From contig JACPFJ010000006.1 in NCBI GenBank assembly GCA_016182975.1, positions 124,001 through 188,000 on the forward strand: DNA of 64,000 bases, given 5' to 3'. This document shows positions 38,414-63,150 of the stretch, piece after piece (positions within the stretch are counted from its first letter, which is position 1; each line of letters starts with the position of its first letter). The notes beneath the pieces are model-generated. The model saw only the letters and a list, made by a program, of their open reading frames with translations. It ran no database searches and had not been told where the DNA came from. A program made the translations under genes and the position numbers. Source of the DNA: Deltaproteobacteria bacterium (GTDB taxonomy: Bacteria > Desulfobacterota > Desulfuromonadia > Geobacterales > Pseudopelobacteraceae).

Positions 38414-38485
38414 AATTATGAATTATGAATGCTGAATTTTGAATTGATTCGAAACTCATAATTCATAATTCAAAATTCATAATTC
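38414..38485. repeat. AT-rich quasi-periodic inverted repeat (AATTATG)n
   Basis: aattatgaattatgaatgctgaattttgaatt ... cataattcataattcaaaattcataattc. Confidence 0.7.
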
Positions 38486-38583: not shown

Positions 38584-39879
38584 ATGGGGGGAATGATACA
38601 AACCCTTGCCATGTTTCCGTCATTCCACACCCCGTATCCGCGCTTGCTCCTCCTGGTGATCCTGTTGCTCTTCACCCTGCCCGGCGGCTGCACCAGTTAC
38701 CTCCCGCGCGAGAAGCTGCCGTTCCCCCTGACCGGTGACGCCTGCGACGACCAGGTCAAGGTGGTGACCGTGCCCCTGCCGGTGATCGCCTCCAGTCCCA
38801 ACGAAGGGATAACCTCCGGTGCGCTGTCCGCCTTCCTGATCCACAACCGGCGTGACGAGATCAACACGCTGCTGGCGCCCCAGGTGAACACCAACAGGTA
38901 CTTCGGCGTCACCACGTCGCTCTACGGCGCCTTCTACCCCACCCCCGACAGAAACATGGAGGTCAACCTCTCCCAGTCCACCAAGGTCAACCACTCCTAT
39001 GAATTCAGGATCAGGGACACATCACAGCTTGAGAACCGGCTCGAACTCAACGCCCATCTCTTCAAATTCTCCGACGGCTCGGCCCGTTTTTTCGGTTTTC
39101 AGGCCAAAAGCCCGGTTCAAAGGGAAACAAACTACGCCGACGACGAGGTCGGCTTCAACCTCTCGGCCGGCTATCAGCTCGGCAGGCACTTCCAACTCGT
39201 CCTGGGCGAGCGCTACCGCAACGTAAGCATCCGGCGGGGCGCGGTCGGCAAACTCCCCGATATCAAGGAGGCATTTCCTGCAGCAGCCGTGCCTGGCATC
39301 GACGGATTCGTCGCCCACGCCGCACGGCTCTCCATCGTCTACAGCACGCTGGACAACAGGGACACCCCCTCCTTCGGCGGCTACGCCAGGGTCACCCTGG
39401 AACCGAGCTTCAAGGCCTTGGGGGGCGCCGCCGACTACCGCCACTACGAGGCCGAGATGAAAGGGTACATTCCACTGGACAACGCCCGCTACATCAGCGT
39501 CTTCCGCCTCATGTACAACCAGACCCTGGGGGGCCAGGTCCCCTTTCTGGAGCAGAGTATCCTGGGGGGCGAGACCACCCTGCGCGGCTACGGACGCAAC
39601 CGCTTCATCGACAACAGCTTCTTCCTCTGCAACCTGGAGGAGCGCATCCGCCTCTTCCGCTGGGAGGTATTCAACGTCACCGCCGATTGGGAGATCGCCC
39701 CCTTTATAGACCTGGGAGCGGTGATGGAATCCCTCGACAAGGCCCGTACCGATAACTTCGAATTCAACCCCGGCATCGGCTTCCGCGCCATTGTCCGCCC
39801 CAACATCGTCGGCCGTGTCGACCTTGGCGTCGGGCGTGACGGTCCGGCCATCTTCGTGGGTTTGGGGTATCCCTTCTGA
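38584..39879 (+). CDS. lipoprotein-like outer-membrane beta-barrel (Omp85/bacterial surface antigen family)
   Basis: Lipobox-like LPGGC; RLSIVYSTLDNRDTPSFGGYARVTLEPSFKALGG; EQSILGGETTLRGYGRNRFIDNS. Confidence 0.8.
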   Translation: MGGMIQTLAMFPSFHTPYPRLLLLVILLLFTLPGGCTSYLPREKLPFPLTGDACDDQVKVVTVPLPVIASSPNEGITSGALSAFLIHNRRDEINTLLAPQVNTNRYFGVTTSLYGAFYPTPDRNMEVNLSQSTKVNHSYEFRIRDTSQLENRLELNAHLFKFSDGSARFFGFQAKSPVQRETNYADDEVGFNLSAGYQLGRHFQLVLGERYRNVSIRRGAVGKLPDIKEAFPAAAVPGIDGFVAHAARLSIVYSTLDNRDTPSFGGYARVTLEPSFKALGGAADYRHYEAEMKGYIPLDNARYISVFRLMYNQTLGGQVPFLEQSILGGETTLRGYGRNRFIDNSFFLCNLEERIRLFRWEVFNVTADWEIAPFIDLGAVMESLDKARTDNFEFNPGIGFRAIVRPNIVGRVDLGVGRDGPAIFVGLGYPF

Positions 39880-39937
39880 GTTTTGAGTTCTAAGTTTTGA
39901 GTTTTGAGTTAAAACTAAAAACTCAAAACTAAAAACC
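39878..39937. repeat. quasi-periodic inverted repeat (GAGTTTT)n between convergent genes
   Basis: gagttttgagttctaagttttgagttttgagtt/aaaactaaaaactcaaaactaaaaac. Confidence 0.7.
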
Positions 39938-44707: not shown

Positions 44708-44725
44708 TTCAGAACTGGAACCTTA

Positions 44726-44800
44726 CCACCCCTAGCCCCTCCTAAAATAGGAGGGGGACTTTTAAAGCTCCCCTCCTTGATAAGGAGGGGCGGGGGGTGG
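44726..44800. repeat. GC-rich nested inverted repeat
   Basis: ccacccctagcccctcctaaaataggagggggacttttaaag / ctcccctccttgataaggaggggcggggggtgg. Confidence 0.75.
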
Positions 44801-44831
44801 TTAGTCTCTGTGTTATAAAAGGGGAAAAACC

Positions 44832-49781: not shown

Positions 49782-51170
49782 ATGGCCCTGAATAAGAAAA
49801 TCGTGCTCCCACTGGTTGTGATCATCCTGGCCGCGGCAGCGGGAGGAGGGTGGCTCCTGTGGAACAGGCAACAACCCGGCAAGGCCGGCGCTGATAAGGC
49901 CACGGCGGCCAAGACCCTCTACACCTGCTCGATGCACCCCTTCATCATCAAGGACAAGCCGGGCACCTGCCCGATCTGCGGCATGGAGCTGATCAAGAAG
50001 ATCGACGCCGGACCCGGCGACGCGACCGCCCAGACAGCGGAGCAGAAGCAGCAGGCCGCCATGCTCGGCCATGTCTCGCTCTCGCCGACCCAGCGGGTCA
50101 TGGCCAACGTCGCCACGGTGGAGGCGAAACAGCAGTCCCTGAACAAGGAGATCAACGCCGTCGGCATCGTCCAGTACGACCAGTCGCGCCAGGCCAAGGT
50201 GACCGCCTGGATCGCCGGACGCATCGACCAACTGCACGTCAATACGGTCGGCGCCCTCGTTTCCAAGGACAAACCGGTGGCCGAGGTCTACTCCCCCGAC
50301 CTCTTGGCCACCCAGCAGGAGTACCTCCTGGCGGTCAGGAGCCGCGACCAGTTGAAGAGCTCCCCGATTCCCTCCATCTCCCAGAACGGCGACGGGCTGG
50401 TGGCGTCGGCCAAACAGCGGCTGATGCTCTTCGGGGTCAAGGAAAGCCAGATCGCCGAACTGGAAAAGGCCGGCAAGCCCAACATCCGCCTCCCGATCTA
50501 CACCCCGCTCTCGGGCATCGTCATCGAGAAGATGGTCCAGCAGGGACAGTACGTCAACACCGGCGAACCACTCTTCAACATCGCCGACCTCTCGACCGTC
50601 TGGGTCGAGATCGAGGTCTACGAGAACGAGTTCCCCAACATCCGCATCGGCCAGCAGGTGGAGATCCAGTCCCAGTCATATCCCGGCCGGCCGTTCACCG
50701 GAAGGGTGGCCTTCATCTACCCCTTCCTCGATCCCAAGACCAGGACGGTAAAGGCCAGGGTGGAGATGCCCAACCCGGGCATGCGGCTCAAGCCGGACAT
50801 GTTCGTCAACGCCGTCATCAAGGTGGCGCTGGGCAGGAGCATCGTCGTGCCGGTCACGGCGGTCATGGACACGGGCAAGCGCCAGGTGGTCTGGGTGGAG
50901 ACTTCCCCCGGCATGTTCGAGCCGCGCGACGTCAAGGTCGGCCAGCAGACCAACGACCGGATCCAGATCCTCGCAGGCCTCAAGCAGGGCGACAAGGTGG
51001 CGGCCTCAGGCGGATACCTGATCGATTCCGAATCGCAACTGAAGGGTGGCGGCGGGCATGAGGGCATGCCTGGTATGCCGGGGATGAAGATGGACGACAA
51101 GGGCGCCGCGAAGCCAGCCGCGCCCCCGGCGAAGAAGGATTCGCTGAAGATGGATGATATGAAGATGTAG
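49782..51170 (+). CDS. CusB-like RND periplasmic adaptor with N-terminal heavy-metal-binding domain
   Basis: YTCSMHPFIIKDKPGTCPICGMELIKK; AWIAGRIDQLHVNTVGALVSKDKPVAEVYSPDL; Met/His-rich C-terminus. Confidence 0.92.
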   Translation: MALNKKIVLPLVVIILAAAAGGGWLLWNRQQPGKAGADKATAAKTLYTCSMHPFIIKDKPGTCPICGMELIKKIDAGPGDATAQTAEQKQQAAMLGHVSLSPTQRVMANVATVEAKQQSLNKEINAVGIVQYDQSRQAKVTAWIAGRIDQLHVNTVGALVSKDKPVAEVYSPDLLATQQEYLLAVRSRDQLKSSPIPSISQNGDGLVASAKQRLMLFGVKESQIAELEKAGKPNIRLPIYTPLSGIVIEKMVQQGQYVNTGEPLFNIADLSTVWVEIEVYENEFPNIRIGQQVEIQSQSYPGRPFTGRVAFIYPFLDPKTRTVKARVEMPNPGMRLKPDMFVNAVIKVALGRSIVVPVTAVMDTGKRQVVWVETSPGMFEPRDVKVGQQTNDRIQILAGLKQGDKVAASGGYLIDSESQLKGGGGHEGMPGMPGMKMDDKGAAKPAAPPAKKDSLKMDDMKM

Positions 51171-51183
51171 TGCAAAGCAAGGC

Positions 51184-51661
51184 AATAGAACGCGGATGAC
51201 GCGGATTGAGCGGATTAGCGCGGATAACCGGAAGAGGAGAAGTATATGCTTTATGCCGATGTAACGGATGGTATTCTTAAGGCATTTTACAAAGTCTACA
51301 ATTCTCTTGGTTATGGCTTTCTTGAAAAGGTCTATGAAAATGCGCTCCTGATCGAACTTGTAAATTCAGATTTTCTGGTACTTCAACAACATCCAATTCA
51401 AGTTTTATATGAAAATCAGCAGGTCGGTGAATATTTTGCCGATCTTATGGTGAATGATTTGATTATCCTTGAATTAAAAGCGGTAGAGTATATTCGGGAT
51501 GAGCATGTTGCTCAGCTCACAAATTATCTGAAAGCAACGAGGAAAGAGGTCGGATTATTGCTGAATTTCGGCGCCAAGCCTGAATTTAAGAGAATCGTCT
51601 TTACCAATTCATTTCAGAAATCCGTGTAAATCCGCTCAATCCGCGTCATCCGCGTTCTATT
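51184..51661. mobile_element. GxxExxY cassette bracketed by perfect 33-bp inverted repeats
   Basis: Left 51184-51216 aatagaacgcggatgacgcggattgagcggatt; right 51629-51661 is its exact reverse complement; inserted between cusB-like and cusA-like genes. Confidence 0.75.
51246..51629 (+). CDS. GxxExxY protein (PD-(D/E)XK-like family)
   Basis: LGYGFLEKVYENALLIEL motif; LIILELKAVEYIRDEHVAQLTNYLKATRKEVGLLLNFG. Confidence 0.9.
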   Translation: MLYADVTDGILKAFYKVYNSLGYGFLEKVYENALLIELVNSDFLVLQQHPIQVLYENQQVGEYFADLMVNDLIILELKAVEYIRDEHVAQLTNYLKATRKEVGLLLNFGAKPEFKRIVFTNSFQKSV

Positions 51662-51673
51662 AAAGGATCTCTC

Positions 51674-54600
51674 ATGATCGAAAAAATCATCGAATACTCC
51701 GCTCGTAACCGCGTCGTCGTGCTGATGGCCTTCGGGCTGATCGTCGCCTGGGGGATCTGGGCGGTCTTCAAGACACCGGTGGACGCCATCCCCGACCTCT
51801 CCGACAACCAGGTGATCGTCTTCACCGAGTACCCCGGCCGCTCGCCCCAGGTGGTGGAGGACCAGGTCACCTATCCGCTGGCGGTCAACCTCCAGGGTCT
51901 GCCCCAGGTCCGCGCCGTGCGGGCCTCATCCGCCTTCGGCTTCTCGATGATCTACGTGATCTTCGAGGACAAGGCCGACATCTACTGGGCCAGGACAAGG
52001 GTGCTGGAACGGCTCAATTACGCCGCGGCCCTGCTGCCGCCCAACGTGCGCCCCACCCTTGGGCCGGACGGCACCGGCGTGGGGCACGTCTTCTGGTACA
52101 CCATCGAGGGGAAGGGGTACGACGCGGAGCAGCTCCGGACGCTGCAGGACTGGTTCGTGCGCTACCAGTTGAACACCGTCCAGGGGGTTGCCGAGGTGGC
52201 CTCCATCGGCGGCTATGTCCGCGAGTACCAGATCGACCTCGACCCGAACAGGCTCTTTGCCTACAACATCAAGGCCGGCCAGGTGATGGAGGCGGTCAAG
52301 GGCTCCAACAAGGACGTGGGGGGGAAGCTGATCGAGCAGGCCGACGCCGAGTACCTGATCCGCGGCCGCGGCTACGTCCAGTCCCAGGCAGACCTGGAGA
52401 ACATCGTGGTCGGCGCCGACATGCGCGGCACGCCGATCTACGTCAGGAACCTGGGGACCGTGCAGATGGGAGGCGCCATCCGGCGGGGGCTTTTGGAGAT
52501 GAACGGCGAGGGTGAGGCGGTCGGCGGCATCGTGGTCATGCGCTATGGCGAGAACGCCAAGGACGTCATCGACCGGGTCAAGGAGAAGATCATCGCCCTG
52601 GAGAAGGGACTCCCCCCCGGCGTCAAGATCATGGTCTCCTACGACCGCTCCGACCTGATCGCCCGGGCCATCGACACCCTCAAAAGGGCCCTGACCGAGG
52701 AGTCGATCGTCGTTTCGCTGGTGATCCTGGTCTTCCTGCTCCACTTCCAGAGCGCCCTGGTGATCGTGCTGACGCTCCCCATCGCGGTCCTGATCTCCTT
52801 CATAACCATGAAGCTGATGGGGGTCACCTCCAACATCATGTCCCTGGGGGGGATCGCCATCGCGATCGGCGTGCTCGTGGACGCCGGGGTGATCATGGTG
52901 GAGAACTGCTACCGCCACCTCTCCGAGATGCCCCCCGAGGAACGGAAGGAGAAGCGGCTGGAGGTGATCATCGCCTCGGCCAAGCAGGTGGGACGGGCGA
53001 TCTTCTTCTCGCTGGCGATCATCGTGCTCTCCTTCGTGCCGGTCTTCATGCTGGAGGGGCAGGAGGGGAAACTCTTCCATCCGCTGGCATTCACCAAGAC
53101 CTTCTCCATGATGGGCTCGGCCCTGATCGCCATCACCCTGGTGCCCTGCCTGATGTACTGGTTCATGCGCGGCAAGATGCCCCCCGAGAGCGCCAACCCG
53201 GTCTCCACCTTCTTCATCAGGCTCTACTCGCCGGTGATCCGCTGGGTGCTGAAATGGAAGAAGACCACCATCGCCCTCAACATGGTGGCCCTGGCCATCG
53301 CCGTGCCGATGTTCATGACACTCGGCTCCGAGTTCATGCCCCCCCTGGACGAGGGGTCGTTGCTCTACATGCCGGTGACGCTCCCCAACATCTCCATCAC
53401 CGAGGCCAGGCGGCTGATCCAGGTCCAGGACACCATCATCAAGAGCGTCCCCGAGGTGGAGCACGTGCTCGGCAAGGTCGGCCGGGCCGAGACCTCCACC
53501 GACCCGGCGCCGGTCTCGATGTTCGAGAGCATCATCATCCTCAAGCCCAAGGAAAAGTGGCGGCCCGGGATCAAAAAGGCCGACATCGTGGCCGAGCTGG
53601 ACAACAGGCTGCAGCAGATCGGGGTCAGGAACGGCTGGACCCAGCCGATCATCAACCGCATCAACATGCTCTCCACCGGCGTGCGCACCGACCTGGGGGT
53701 GAAGATCTTCGGCAGCGACCTCAACGTGCTGAAGGACCTGGCGGTTCAGGCCGAGGGAATCCTCAAACCGATCCCCGGAGCAGCCGACGTGGTGGCCGAG
53801 CGGGTCACCGGCGGCAACTACATCGACATCGAGATCGACCGCGAGGCCGCGGCCCGCTACAACGTCAAGGTGGGCGACATCCAGGACGTGATCGAGACCG
53901 CCCTGGGGGGCGAGGCGCTCTCCACCACGGTCGAGGGTAGAAACCGCTTCCCGATCCGCATCCGCTACCAGCGCGACTACCGCGACAACATCCCCGCCAT
54001 CCGCCGCATCCTGGTGGGGAGCATGGAGGGGGCCCAGGTGCCGCTGTCGCTCGTGACGAAACTGAAGGTCTCCACCGGCGCCCCCGAGATCAACAGCGAG
54101 GGGGGGCTCTTGCGCTCGATCGTCTTCCTCAACGTGCGCGGCCGCGACATGGGGGGCTTCGTCACCGAGGCCAAGCAGGTGCTTGAGAAGCAGTTGAAGC
54201 TCCCTGCCGGCTACTACGTCGCCTGGTCCGGGCAGTGGGAGAACCAGATCCGCGCCAAGGCGCGCCTCCAGCTCCTGGTCCCCCTGGGGATGGTGATCAT
54301 CTTCATCCTGCTCTACTTCACCTTCCATTCGGCCCTGGAGGCGAGCATGGTCATGCTCTCGGTCCCCTTCGCCCTGGTGGGTGGTGTCTACCTGGTGGCG
54401 GCCCTGGGGTACAACCTCTCGGTGGCGGTCTGGGTCGGCTTCATCGCCCTCTACGGCATCGCCGTGGAGACCGGTGTGGTGATGGTGATATACCTGCACG
54501 AGGCCTTGGACAAGAAGCTGATCAACGGGCCGTGCAGCGAGCAGGACATCTACGACGCCACCTTCGAGGGGGCGGTCTTGAGGCTCAGGCCCAAGCTGAT

Positions 54601-54811
54601 GACCGTGGCCGTGGCGCTCCTCGGTCTGGTGCCGATCATGTGGTCCAGCGGCACCGGCGCCGACGTGATGAAGCCGATCGCCGCGCCGATGATCGGCGGT
54701 ATGATCTCATCTGCGGTGCACGTCCTGATCATGACCCCGGTGATCTTCGTGCTGATGAAGCGGCGGGAGTTGAGGAAGGGGACGCTGAAGTATTCAGGGA
54801 TGAAGCACTGA
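51674..54811 (+). CDS. cusA: CusA/CzcA-family RND heavy-metal efflux pump
   Basis: 1045 aa; MIEKIIEYSARNRVVVLMAFGLIVAWGIWAVFKTPVDAIPDLSDNQVIVFTEYPGRSPQVVEDQVTYPL. Confidence 0.93.
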   Translation: MIEKIIEYSARNRVVVLMAFGLIVAWGIWAVFKTPVDAIPDLSDNQVIVFTEYPGRSPQVVEDQVTYPLAVNLQGLPQVRAVRASSAFGFSMIYVIFEDKADIYWARTRVLERLNYAAALLPPNVRPTLGPDGTGVGHVFWYTIEGKGYDAEQLRTLQDWFVRYQLNTVQGVAEVASIGGYVREYQIDLDPNRLFAYNIKAGQVMEAVKGSNKDVGGKLIEQADAEYLIRGRGYVQSQADLENIVVGADMRGTPIYVRNLGTVQMGGAIRRGLLEMNGEGEAVGGIVVMRYGENAKDVIDRVKEKIIALEKGLPPGVKIMVSYDRSDLIARAIDTLKRALTEESIVVSLVILVFLLHFQSALVIVLTLPIAVLISFITMKLMGVTSNIMSLGGIAIAIGVLVDAGVIMVENCYRHLSEMPPEERKEKRLEVIIASAKQVGRAIFFSLAIIVLSFVPVFMLEGQEGKLFHPLAFTKTFSMMGSALIAITLVPCLMYWFMRGKMPPESANPVSTFFIRLYSPVIRWVLKWKKTTIALNMVALAIAVPMFMTLGSEFMPPLDEGSLLYMPVTLPNISITEARRLIQVQDTIIKSVPEVEHVLGKVGRAETSTDPAPVSMFESIIILKPKEKWRPGIKKADIVAELDNRLQQIGVRNGWTQPIINRINMLSTGVRTDLGVKIFGSDLNVLKDLAVQAEGILKPIPGAADVVAERVTGGNYIDIEIDREAAARYNVKVGDIQDVIETALGGEALSTTVEGRNRFPIRIRYQRDYRDNIPAIRRILVGSMEGAQVPLSLVTKLKVSTGAPEINSEGGLLRSIVFLNVRGRDMGGFVTEAKQVLEKQLKLPAGYYVAWSGQWENQIRAKARLQLLVPLGMVIIFILLYFTFHSALEASMVMLSVPFALVGGVYLVAALGYNLSVAVWVGFIALYGIAVETGVVMVIYLHEALDKKLINGPCSEQDIYDATFEGAVLRLRPKLMTVAVALLGLVPIMWSSGTGADVMKPIAAPMIGGMISSAVHVLIMTPVIFVLMKRRELRKGTLKYSGMKH

Positions 54812-55453: not shown

Positions 55454-55499
55454 GGCTGACCGACTGTACGCAAGAAAGGCTTTACGTCGCCACATTTTA

Positions 55500-55586
55500 C
55501 CCCATCCCCACCCTAACCCTCCCCTTGAAGGGGAGGGAACTTAAACCTCCTCCCCCTTCAAGGGGGAGGTTGGGAGGGGGATGGGG
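55500..55586. repeat. GC-rich nested inverted repeat, same layout as 44726-44800
   Basis: ccccatccccaccctaaccctccccttgaaggggaggg / cctcctcccccttcaagggggaggttgggagggggatgggg. Confidence 0.75.
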
Positions 55587-55639
55587 TTATGGCGGCACTC
55601 CGCACGGCAGAACAATCCCAGCTTTTTCAGGAGCACCCC

Positions 55640-56497: not shown

Positions 56498-56672
56498 AAC
56501 TGAAACAAGCATTTGAAACACGGAGCAACGGAGCAACCGAGAAATCAAGATCTTACATCAGAAACGGGCGGCACCAATCTGGGACTGTCAAGACGTTTAT
56601 TTCACAAATTATCCTCAGTTTTACTCCGTTGCTCCGTTGCTCCGTGTTATTCAAGTATTGCAGTTTTCAGGT
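56496..56672. repeat. ORF-less inverted-repeat element (ACACGGAGCAACGGAGCAAC arms)
   Basis: 20-bp perfect arms 56518-56537 / 56628-56647; flanks like CCTGAAAA..GCA..TTGAA. Confidence 0.8.
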
Positions 56673-57851: not shown

Positions 57852-58060
57852 ACCTGAAAACGGCACTTCCACCACAGAGTCACAGCCAAAAGTAGGCGCT
57901 TCTAAGCGAGAACACAGGGGAATCACAGAGCTTTTTTGAATAGATTCATCACCAAAAGGTGAATTGCATGATCTATGAGATACATTCCAGTGCATTGTAA
58001 ATAAAAGGCTTTTCTCTGTGCCCTCTGTGACTCTGTGGTGAGATATGCAGAATTTAGGTT
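57852..58060. repeat. ORF-less inverted-repeat element (ACCACAGAGTCACAG arms)
   Basis: 15-bp perfect arms 57871-57885 / 58025-58039; termini acctgaaaacggcactt / aacctaaattctgcat. Confidence 0.8.
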
Positions 58061-61412: not shown

Positions 61413-61587
61413 CCTGAAAAATGCATTTGAAACACAGAGCAACGGAGCAACGGAGTAAAATCTGAGAATACTCTTGTTGGTAAAACCTTTTTGAGACTCA
61501 CCGTCTTGGTGAAACGTGCTTTTTATGTAAGACCTTGATTTCTCTGTTGCTCCGTTGCTCTGTGTTATTCCAACTGCCGTTTTCAGG
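61413..61587. repeat. ORF-less inverted-repeat element (ACACAGAGCAACGGAGCAAC arms)
   Basis: 20-bp perfect arms 61432-61451 / 61546-61565; termini cctgaaaaatgcattt / cctgaaaacggcagtt; core related to 56496-56672 in opposite orientation. Confidence 0.8.
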
Positions 61588-62986: not shown

Positions 62987-63150
62987 CCTAAAAACGGCTT
63001 TTGGGTCCACGAAAGACACGAAATATCACGAAAAATTAAAATATTACAGCAGAAAAGCAATTCTCCAAACAGGTTGCACCATGATGTTACATATTTTAAT
63101 GATTTTGTTCGTGTTTTTCGTGCTTTTCGTGGACAACTGCTTTTTCCAGG
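62987..63150. repeat. ORF-less inverted-repeat element (CACGAAA-periodic arms)
   Basis: gtccacgaaagacacgaaatatcacgaaaaa ... ttcgtgtttttcgtgcttttcgtggac; termini cctaaaaacggctttt / cctggaaaaagcagtt. Confidence 0.75.

Follow-up and report, generated by a model that had tools for sequence, protein, structure and literature searches.

Inverted word arrays bracket GxxExxY genes of the PD-(D/E)XK nuclease fold and track the clade of the encoded protein

Why does a small gene of the GxxExxY family, enclosed by a long inverted repeat, lie between cusB and cusA in the 64,000-nt stretch of DNA analyzed here (the window)? A sequence-only reading of the locus had described perfect 33-bp arms with a quasi-period of ~9 bp, the right one starting on the stop codon of the gene, and each of these points was confirmed: the 33-nt perfect inverted repeat (51184-51216 versus 51629-51661) brackets the GxxExxY gene, the right arm begins at the final base of the TAA stop codon (51627-51629), and the ~9-bp quasi-period is real. 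Pairing extends to 42 nt at 93% identity over the arms as delimited in Table 1, and among inverted repeat pairs at most 1.5 kb apart this pair is the longest in the window. A chance origin of the 33-nt arms was rejected, as 2000 shufflings of the junction sequence gave no perfect inverted repeat above 12 nt. Profile searches found no transposase in the cassette; its protein is a single PF13366 domain.

Table 1. Features of the cusB-cusA junction and ORF-less elements in the window (window coordinates).
Feature	Position	Strand	Remarks
CusB-type periplasmic adaptor	49782..51170	+	upstream neighbor
Left arm	51184..51225	+	four spaced C-N-GGAT words; first 33 nt perfectly inverted in right arm
GxxExxY gene	51246..51629	+	127 aa; compact PD-(D/E)XK nuclease, Cas4/lambda-exonuclease-like fold
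Right arm	51620..51661	-	inverted copy; overlaps final codons and stop of the ORF
CusA/CzcA-type RND pump	51674..54811	+	downstream neighbor
ORF-less element, cassette-like arm layout, word CAACGGAG	56500..56671	.	ends CTGAAA...TTTCAGG; TTAAAA on both sides
ORF-less element, CACAGAG-word arms	57853..58058	.	CCTGAAAACGGC end; exact target duplication absent
ORF-less element, cassette-like arm layout	61413..61587	.	ends CCTGAAAA...TTTTCAGG; exact 5-bp duplication ATGAA on both sides
ORF-less element, CACGAAA-word arms	62987..63150	.	CCTAAAAACGGC end; exact 5-bp duplication ATAAA

The ORF of the cassette belongs to GxxExxY/PDDEXK_3 (PF13366, E=3e-39; TIGR04256, E=1e-37), and the TIGR04256/PF13366 profile scores lie above the curated cut-offs (134.4 bits versus 22; 129 versus 35). 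Across 64 related proteins, no variation was seen at E27, D66, E76, Q90, or Y94, and K78 is found in more than 90%; we take these residues to be the PD-(D/E)XK signature together with the QxxxY motif (Q90xxxY94) of the RecB/Cas4 group. Among solved structures, the AlphaFold2 model (mean pLDDT 92) comes nearest to Cas4 SSO0001, LHK-Exo, lambda exonuclease, an Argonaute-associated Cas4 protein, and the Hjc resolvase, with modest TM-scores (0.36-0.58). With nucleases of the Cas4/lambda exonuclease/Hjc type (4ic1, 3syy, 3sm4, 2wiw) the protein shares the fold and the active-site layout including QxxxY, while it differs from them in having only 127 residues and in residing in a repeat-flanked cassette of its own. 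The earlier proposal that it is a candidate nuclease is strengthened by the complete set of catalytic residues and by the co-variation of the arms with the protein described below. GxxExxY copies at orthologous sites have a dN/dS of ~0.04-0.09, and the protein is under strong purifying selection. Genomes usually carry one to seven copies and at most 10; no phage relatives were found, and the plasmid relatives are eight and distant. The family is very widespread and lacks an assigned function, and its name scarcely appears in the literature searched.

To describe the flanks of GxxExxY genes in general, we scored the left flank of each gene against the reverse-complemented right flank, with a threshold of 14. 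In a census of 57 related genomes, for which genes were taken regardless of their similarity to the window protein, inverted flanks were present at 93 of 110 genes. In a cross-phylum set with archaea included, which was assembled on the basis of resemblance to the window protein and partly overlaps the census, they were present at 94 of 114 loci; of 360 control windows obtained by shifting along these loci, 3 reached the threshold. A systematic lack of inverted flanks at other GxxExxY genes, which would have spoken against a link between gene and arms, is thus not what the survey found. One other GxxExxY gene was found in the home genome, a fragmented and 66% complete assembly that was covered stretch by stretch, and it is flanked by a 31-nt inverted repeat at 97% identity with a different sequence, CTCACCACAGAGTCACAGAGAACACAGAGAC. 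The start of the left-arm consensus, ATRGAACRCNGAT, is common to several phyla, and the flanks of 80 relatives from many phyla have the common start ATRGAACRCNGATNACRCNGAT; the phyla that share the arm consensus include methanogen-related archaea, Chloroflexota, Bacteroidota, Ignavibacteriota, and Nitrospinota. The arm boundary is sharp at (A)ATRGAAC, and the flanks beyond the arms are not conserved. Extension of the arms by target-derived sequence was considered and set aside, as it applies to a few loci only and the boundary is sharp elsewhere. At one locus (L019, 3001-3378 plus flanks) the GxxExxY gene lies between two complete, near-identical hairpin elements and not between single arms.

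Each arm is built from repeats of a short word that takes the form CRCNRAN in 66 of 97 loci (including CACGGAG, CACAGAG, CGCAAAG, CACGAAG, and CGCGGAT) and variants such as CAGGGAT or CTCATGAT in the others; the word spacing lies between 8 and 10 nt at 87 of the 93 census loci. On the GxxExxY protein tree, which rests on ~120 columns, the words cluster by subclade, and four coarse word classes are accommodated with three changes, the minimum. Protein similarity and arm similarity were correlated (Mantel rho 0.248, against a maximum of 0.102 in 500 permutations). Median arm similarity was 0.48 for close proteins in different genomes and 0.16 for distant proteins in the same genome (p=5e-17). 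Taken together, the last two results reveal that the word follows the protein and not the genome. The home genome offers an example of this, as its two GxxExxY genes have different words, each fitting its own protein clade, with the window gene in the CGCGGAT clade and its paralogue in the CACGGAG clade. These sequence comparisons suggest that GxxExxY most likely recognizes the arrays that flank its own gene.

How the cassette came to its present junction was approached through the relatives. The sequence-only reading had taken cusB and cusA to be normally adjacent, correctly so: in relatives with an empty junction the spacer ranges from an overlap to ~50 bp, with the two genes directly joined in one genome (L089) and 30 bp (L099) or 52 bp (L101) apart in others. 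The cassette is not fixed between cusB and cusA. A GxxExxY cassette with arms occupies this junction in the home genome, in five relatives examined, and in two further genomes, while other relatives have unrelated ORF-less inverted-repeat elements there (CACAGAG hairpins, C-rich hairpins, or heptamer repeats). A second junction, mutB-mce, where the cassette gene is a paralogue, shows the same occupied, empty, and other-element states. The protein tree is compatible with one old insertion followed by losses, and there may equally have been several insertions. Between cus orthologues with a dS of 1.1-2.9 or with saturated synonymous sites, the arms are still 82-98% identical, which suggests that they are being kept in place. 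With neighbor orientation taken from naive ORF calls, GxxExxY was co-directional with both neighbors 46 times and antisense 5 times (p=2e-9), and the corresponding counts in the other set were 59 and 6, which suggests expression by read-through. Position-wise and per-locus scans of CGCGGAT-type cassettes and elements gave no convincing target duplication, and among the relatives, with one genome per species, no exact pre- and post-insertion pair was resolved for the cassette. Two syntenic 200-kb regions were polymorphic for small insertions, whose junctions were hidden by intergenic divergence. In these regions (G020:C1:3366001-3566000 versus G029:C1:486001-686000; L242-L261) the two species differ by ~20 small insertions between genes, each 75-260 bp long, and several of them belong to one GGTTGTTCAAAAATAG...CAACAACC family of ~100-190 bp.

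Arm pairs ~90-240 bp apart with no gene between them occur in the home genome and its relatives, and arms of the CACRGAG type reach ~100 copies in some genomes. Beyond the arms of such elements, CCTGAAAACGGC ends were found at 36 sites in the home genome versus 0 for a control pattern. An exact AT-rich 5-bp target duplication accompanies 11 of these CCTGAAAACGGC-ended elements in the home genome, and one further element of this kind is nested inside a CGCGGAT-type element with the duplication TTAAA; the 5-bp duplications were read directly from the element sequences. The ORF-less elements with CCTGAAAA ends and 5-bp duplications are MITEs. GxxExxY cassettes, by contrast, end at their arms, with CCTGAAAA-type ends (within 1 mismatch) at only 14 of 194 flanks. 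Since one type of end, CCTGAAAA, is joined to four different arm words and the cassettes are devoid of such ends, arms and outer ends are separable. The match in arm layout that had been noted between the cassette and the ORF-less elements of the window therefore stands for the arms and does not extend to the outer ends, which the cassette lacks, or to the target duplications, none of which was detected at the cassette. The further suggestion, that the cassette could be an ORF-bearing relative of these elements, is not supported in its simple form: GxxExxY cassettes lack the outer CCTGAAAACGGC ends and show no detectable target duplication, and there are relatives with ~100 arms and no detected GxxExxY gene. 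At the level of genomes, the association between CGCGGAT-type genes and CGCGGAT-type arms was moderate (9/12 versus 12/45 genomes, Fisher p=0.005). A one-to-one tie between the presence of the gene and the number of ORF-less copies was rejected, as two genomes (G008 and G020) have ~100 CACRGAG arms each and no detected GxxExxY gene. A short GACCCGAAGGGCCTAAA-type insert, possibly a smaller nested element, was seen within or at the end of the CGCGGAT-type arms of several ORF-less copies (L223, L225, L226, L228, L229, L231, and L232).

We lean toward the view that the cassette represents a widespread module in which a compact PD-(D/E)XK nuclease is coupled to cognate inverted word arrays around its own gene, in a manner resembling RAYT/REP. 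The arms would be inverted arrays of three to four copies of a word recognized by GxxExxY, and the protein would bind the arms of its own gene, in double-stranded or cruciform form, and presumably nick or cut there. At an operon junction that tolerates it, the gene copy would be passed on mainly by vertical descent and expressed through read-through, while arm-bearing ORF-less elements would spread separately as small mobile sequences; for these, GxxExxY might be the mover, the helper of another transposase, or a restrainer. Several observations count against this scheme: no exact pre- and post-insertion pair and no target duplication was resolved for a cassette, the outer ends of the ORF-less elements are absent from the cassettes, so that a machinery common to both is at most a possibility, G008 and G020 have many arms and no detected GxxExxY gene, and the association of genes and arms at the level of genomes is only moderate. 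A bolder proposal, which we put forward tentatively and suspect goes too far, is that these are an undescribed class of elements of bacteria and archaea, in which a transposase-free Cas4-like nuclease recognizes co-evolving words and either drives the spread of ORF-less hairpins or keeps it in check, with the four-helix-bundle family (PF05635) as a parallel second system.

Several other explanations of the arms have to be weighed against such a module. The arms could be subterminal repeats of MITEs that are moved by a conventional transposase acting on CCTGAAAA-type ends, with GxxExxY as trapped cargo. The target duplications of the CCTGAAAACGGC-ended elements, in which the arms are subterminal, and the combination of CCTGAAAA ends with four different arm words speak for this account, but the cassettes themselves lack those ends, and cargo would not be expected to have arms at 82-85% of its genes across phyla, nor a word that tracks the protein; we regard the account as unlikely. 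Less likely still is that the arms act as RNA, pairing in the operon transcript such that RNase III or a similar enzyme removes or separates the insert, as in 23S rRNA intervening sequences, and the insertion does no harm. The strong co-directionality of GxxExxY with the operon fits this idea, and the four-helix-bundle family of the 23S intervening sequences is likewise flanked by inverted repeats (21/30 PF05635 loci with a score of at least 14 versus 0/58 controls). However, no Rfam match was obtained, similar arms flank ORF-less elements, and pairing alone leaves the cross-phylum consensus of the words unexplained. Selection of the arms as an RNA stem was rejected on a further ground, the absence of a G-U asymmetry: in 92 loci, 196 arm mismatches give G-U in the sense RNA versus 195 others. 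The missing G-U excess makes an RNA stem unlikely and favors recognition of DNA by sequence, as a cruciform, or both.

A homing-type process, in which the nuclease cuts an empty junction and repair that relies on the flanking operon then copies the cassette in, would account for cassettes of the same arm class at cusB-cusA and at mutB-mce in several genera and would make use of the nuclease fold. Yet the conserved part is the arms, which lie inside the cassette, with flanks that are not conserved beyond them, GxxExxY is found at very many unrelated loci, and ancient vertical retention with losses explains the shared sites equally well; such homing seems to us very improbable. We give even less credence to the repeats being chromosomal binding sites for a DNA-bending protein of the host (IHF/HU), to which the GxxExxY gene is unrelated. 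This explanation draws on the paired tandem octamers GTTGCTYN and TCTCCGTSY (PMC2700814), which match words of the ORF-less elements here, and is opposed by the change of word with GxxExxY clade inside one genome and by the presence of the same arms in archaea and Bacteroidota.

The preferred module of nuclease and word arrays can be compared with systems already described. Like RAYT/REP (REPIN), it has a low-copy, long-lived gene that is under purifying selection and inherited vertically for the most part, flanks of inverted short repeats, and related repeats that are scattered through the genome without the gene. It is unlike RAYT/REP in that GxxExxY is a PD-(D/E)XK protein of the Cas4/lambda-exonuclease type whereas RAYT is a Y1 HUH transposase (IS200/IS605-like), and in that its arms are word arrays with a spacing of 8-10 nt whereas REPs are single palindromes tagged with GTAG/CGTC. 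Because the defining Y1 HUH transposase is absent, GxxExxY is not filed as a RAYT; that the protein would act on its repeats is a prediction, and what was observed is the co-variation of word and protein. As in an insertion sequence or MITE, the cassette has terminal inverted repeats, but it encodes no transposase. Chunjie, a MITE of Geobacter uraniireducens (cited in PMC10969869), and similar MITEs are small inverted-repeat elements that have inserted into operons in this group of bacteria. The ORF-less elements resemble them in having terminal ends and 5-bp duplications, while the GxxExxY cassette differs in its conserved gene, in lacking those ends, and in having no detected target duplication. 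With the 23S rRNA intervening sequences (PF05635) the cassette shares the arrangement of a single small ORF enclosed by long inverted repeats, and PF05635 genes located outside rRNA are flanked by short-word arms in relatives; here, however, the cassette is not in a 23S rRNA gene and its protein is PF13366 and not PF05635, the host is the protein-coding cusB-cusA operon, and no selection for pairing at the RNA level was seen.

In Geobacter metallireducens, paired tandem octamers or heptamers on opposite strands at variable distance have been described as putative IHF/HU sites (Aklujkar et al. 2009, PMC2700814), and multicopy sequences occupy 12% of the intergenic regions of the Geobacter bemidjiensis genome (PMC2996986). 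The G. metallireducens sites are like the present arrays in being tandem 7-8-mers, and two of their classes, 1 and 2, correspond to ORF-less elements here; unlike them, they were read as IHF/HU regulatory sites and come without a nuclease gene, a target duplication, or a cross-phylum link. No paper linking such repeats to GxxExxY was found in the literature searched, which covered few subscription journals. A co-varying DNA substrate would give GxxExxY its first testable function, and it would offer an owner for the abundant families of short inverted repeats in Geobacter-like genomes, listed since 2009 as regulatory sites of unexplained meaning. If the proposal is true, nucleases of the Cas4 type are able to serve as the anchor of a REP/RAYT-like element.

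Other hairpins were observed alongside these arrays. C-rich/G-rich hairpin elements (CCCCTCC...) at positions 44722-44804 and 55499-55587 of the window resemble the class 4 CCYTC repeats of G. metallireducens, and comparable C-rich hairpins fill the cusB-cusA junction in two relatives (L090 and L098). The PF05635 four-helix-bundle genes of relatives (L132-L161) are also bracketed by inverted word arrays, in which the words look ~7 nt long (for example, GGGACTG, TTTTGAA, and GTGAATG). AT-rich quasi-periodic hairpins lie at 38414-38484 and 39874-39936 of the window (AATTATGAATTATGAATG; TTTTGAGTTTTGAGTT), and their words resemble those beside four-helix-bundle genes elsewhere.
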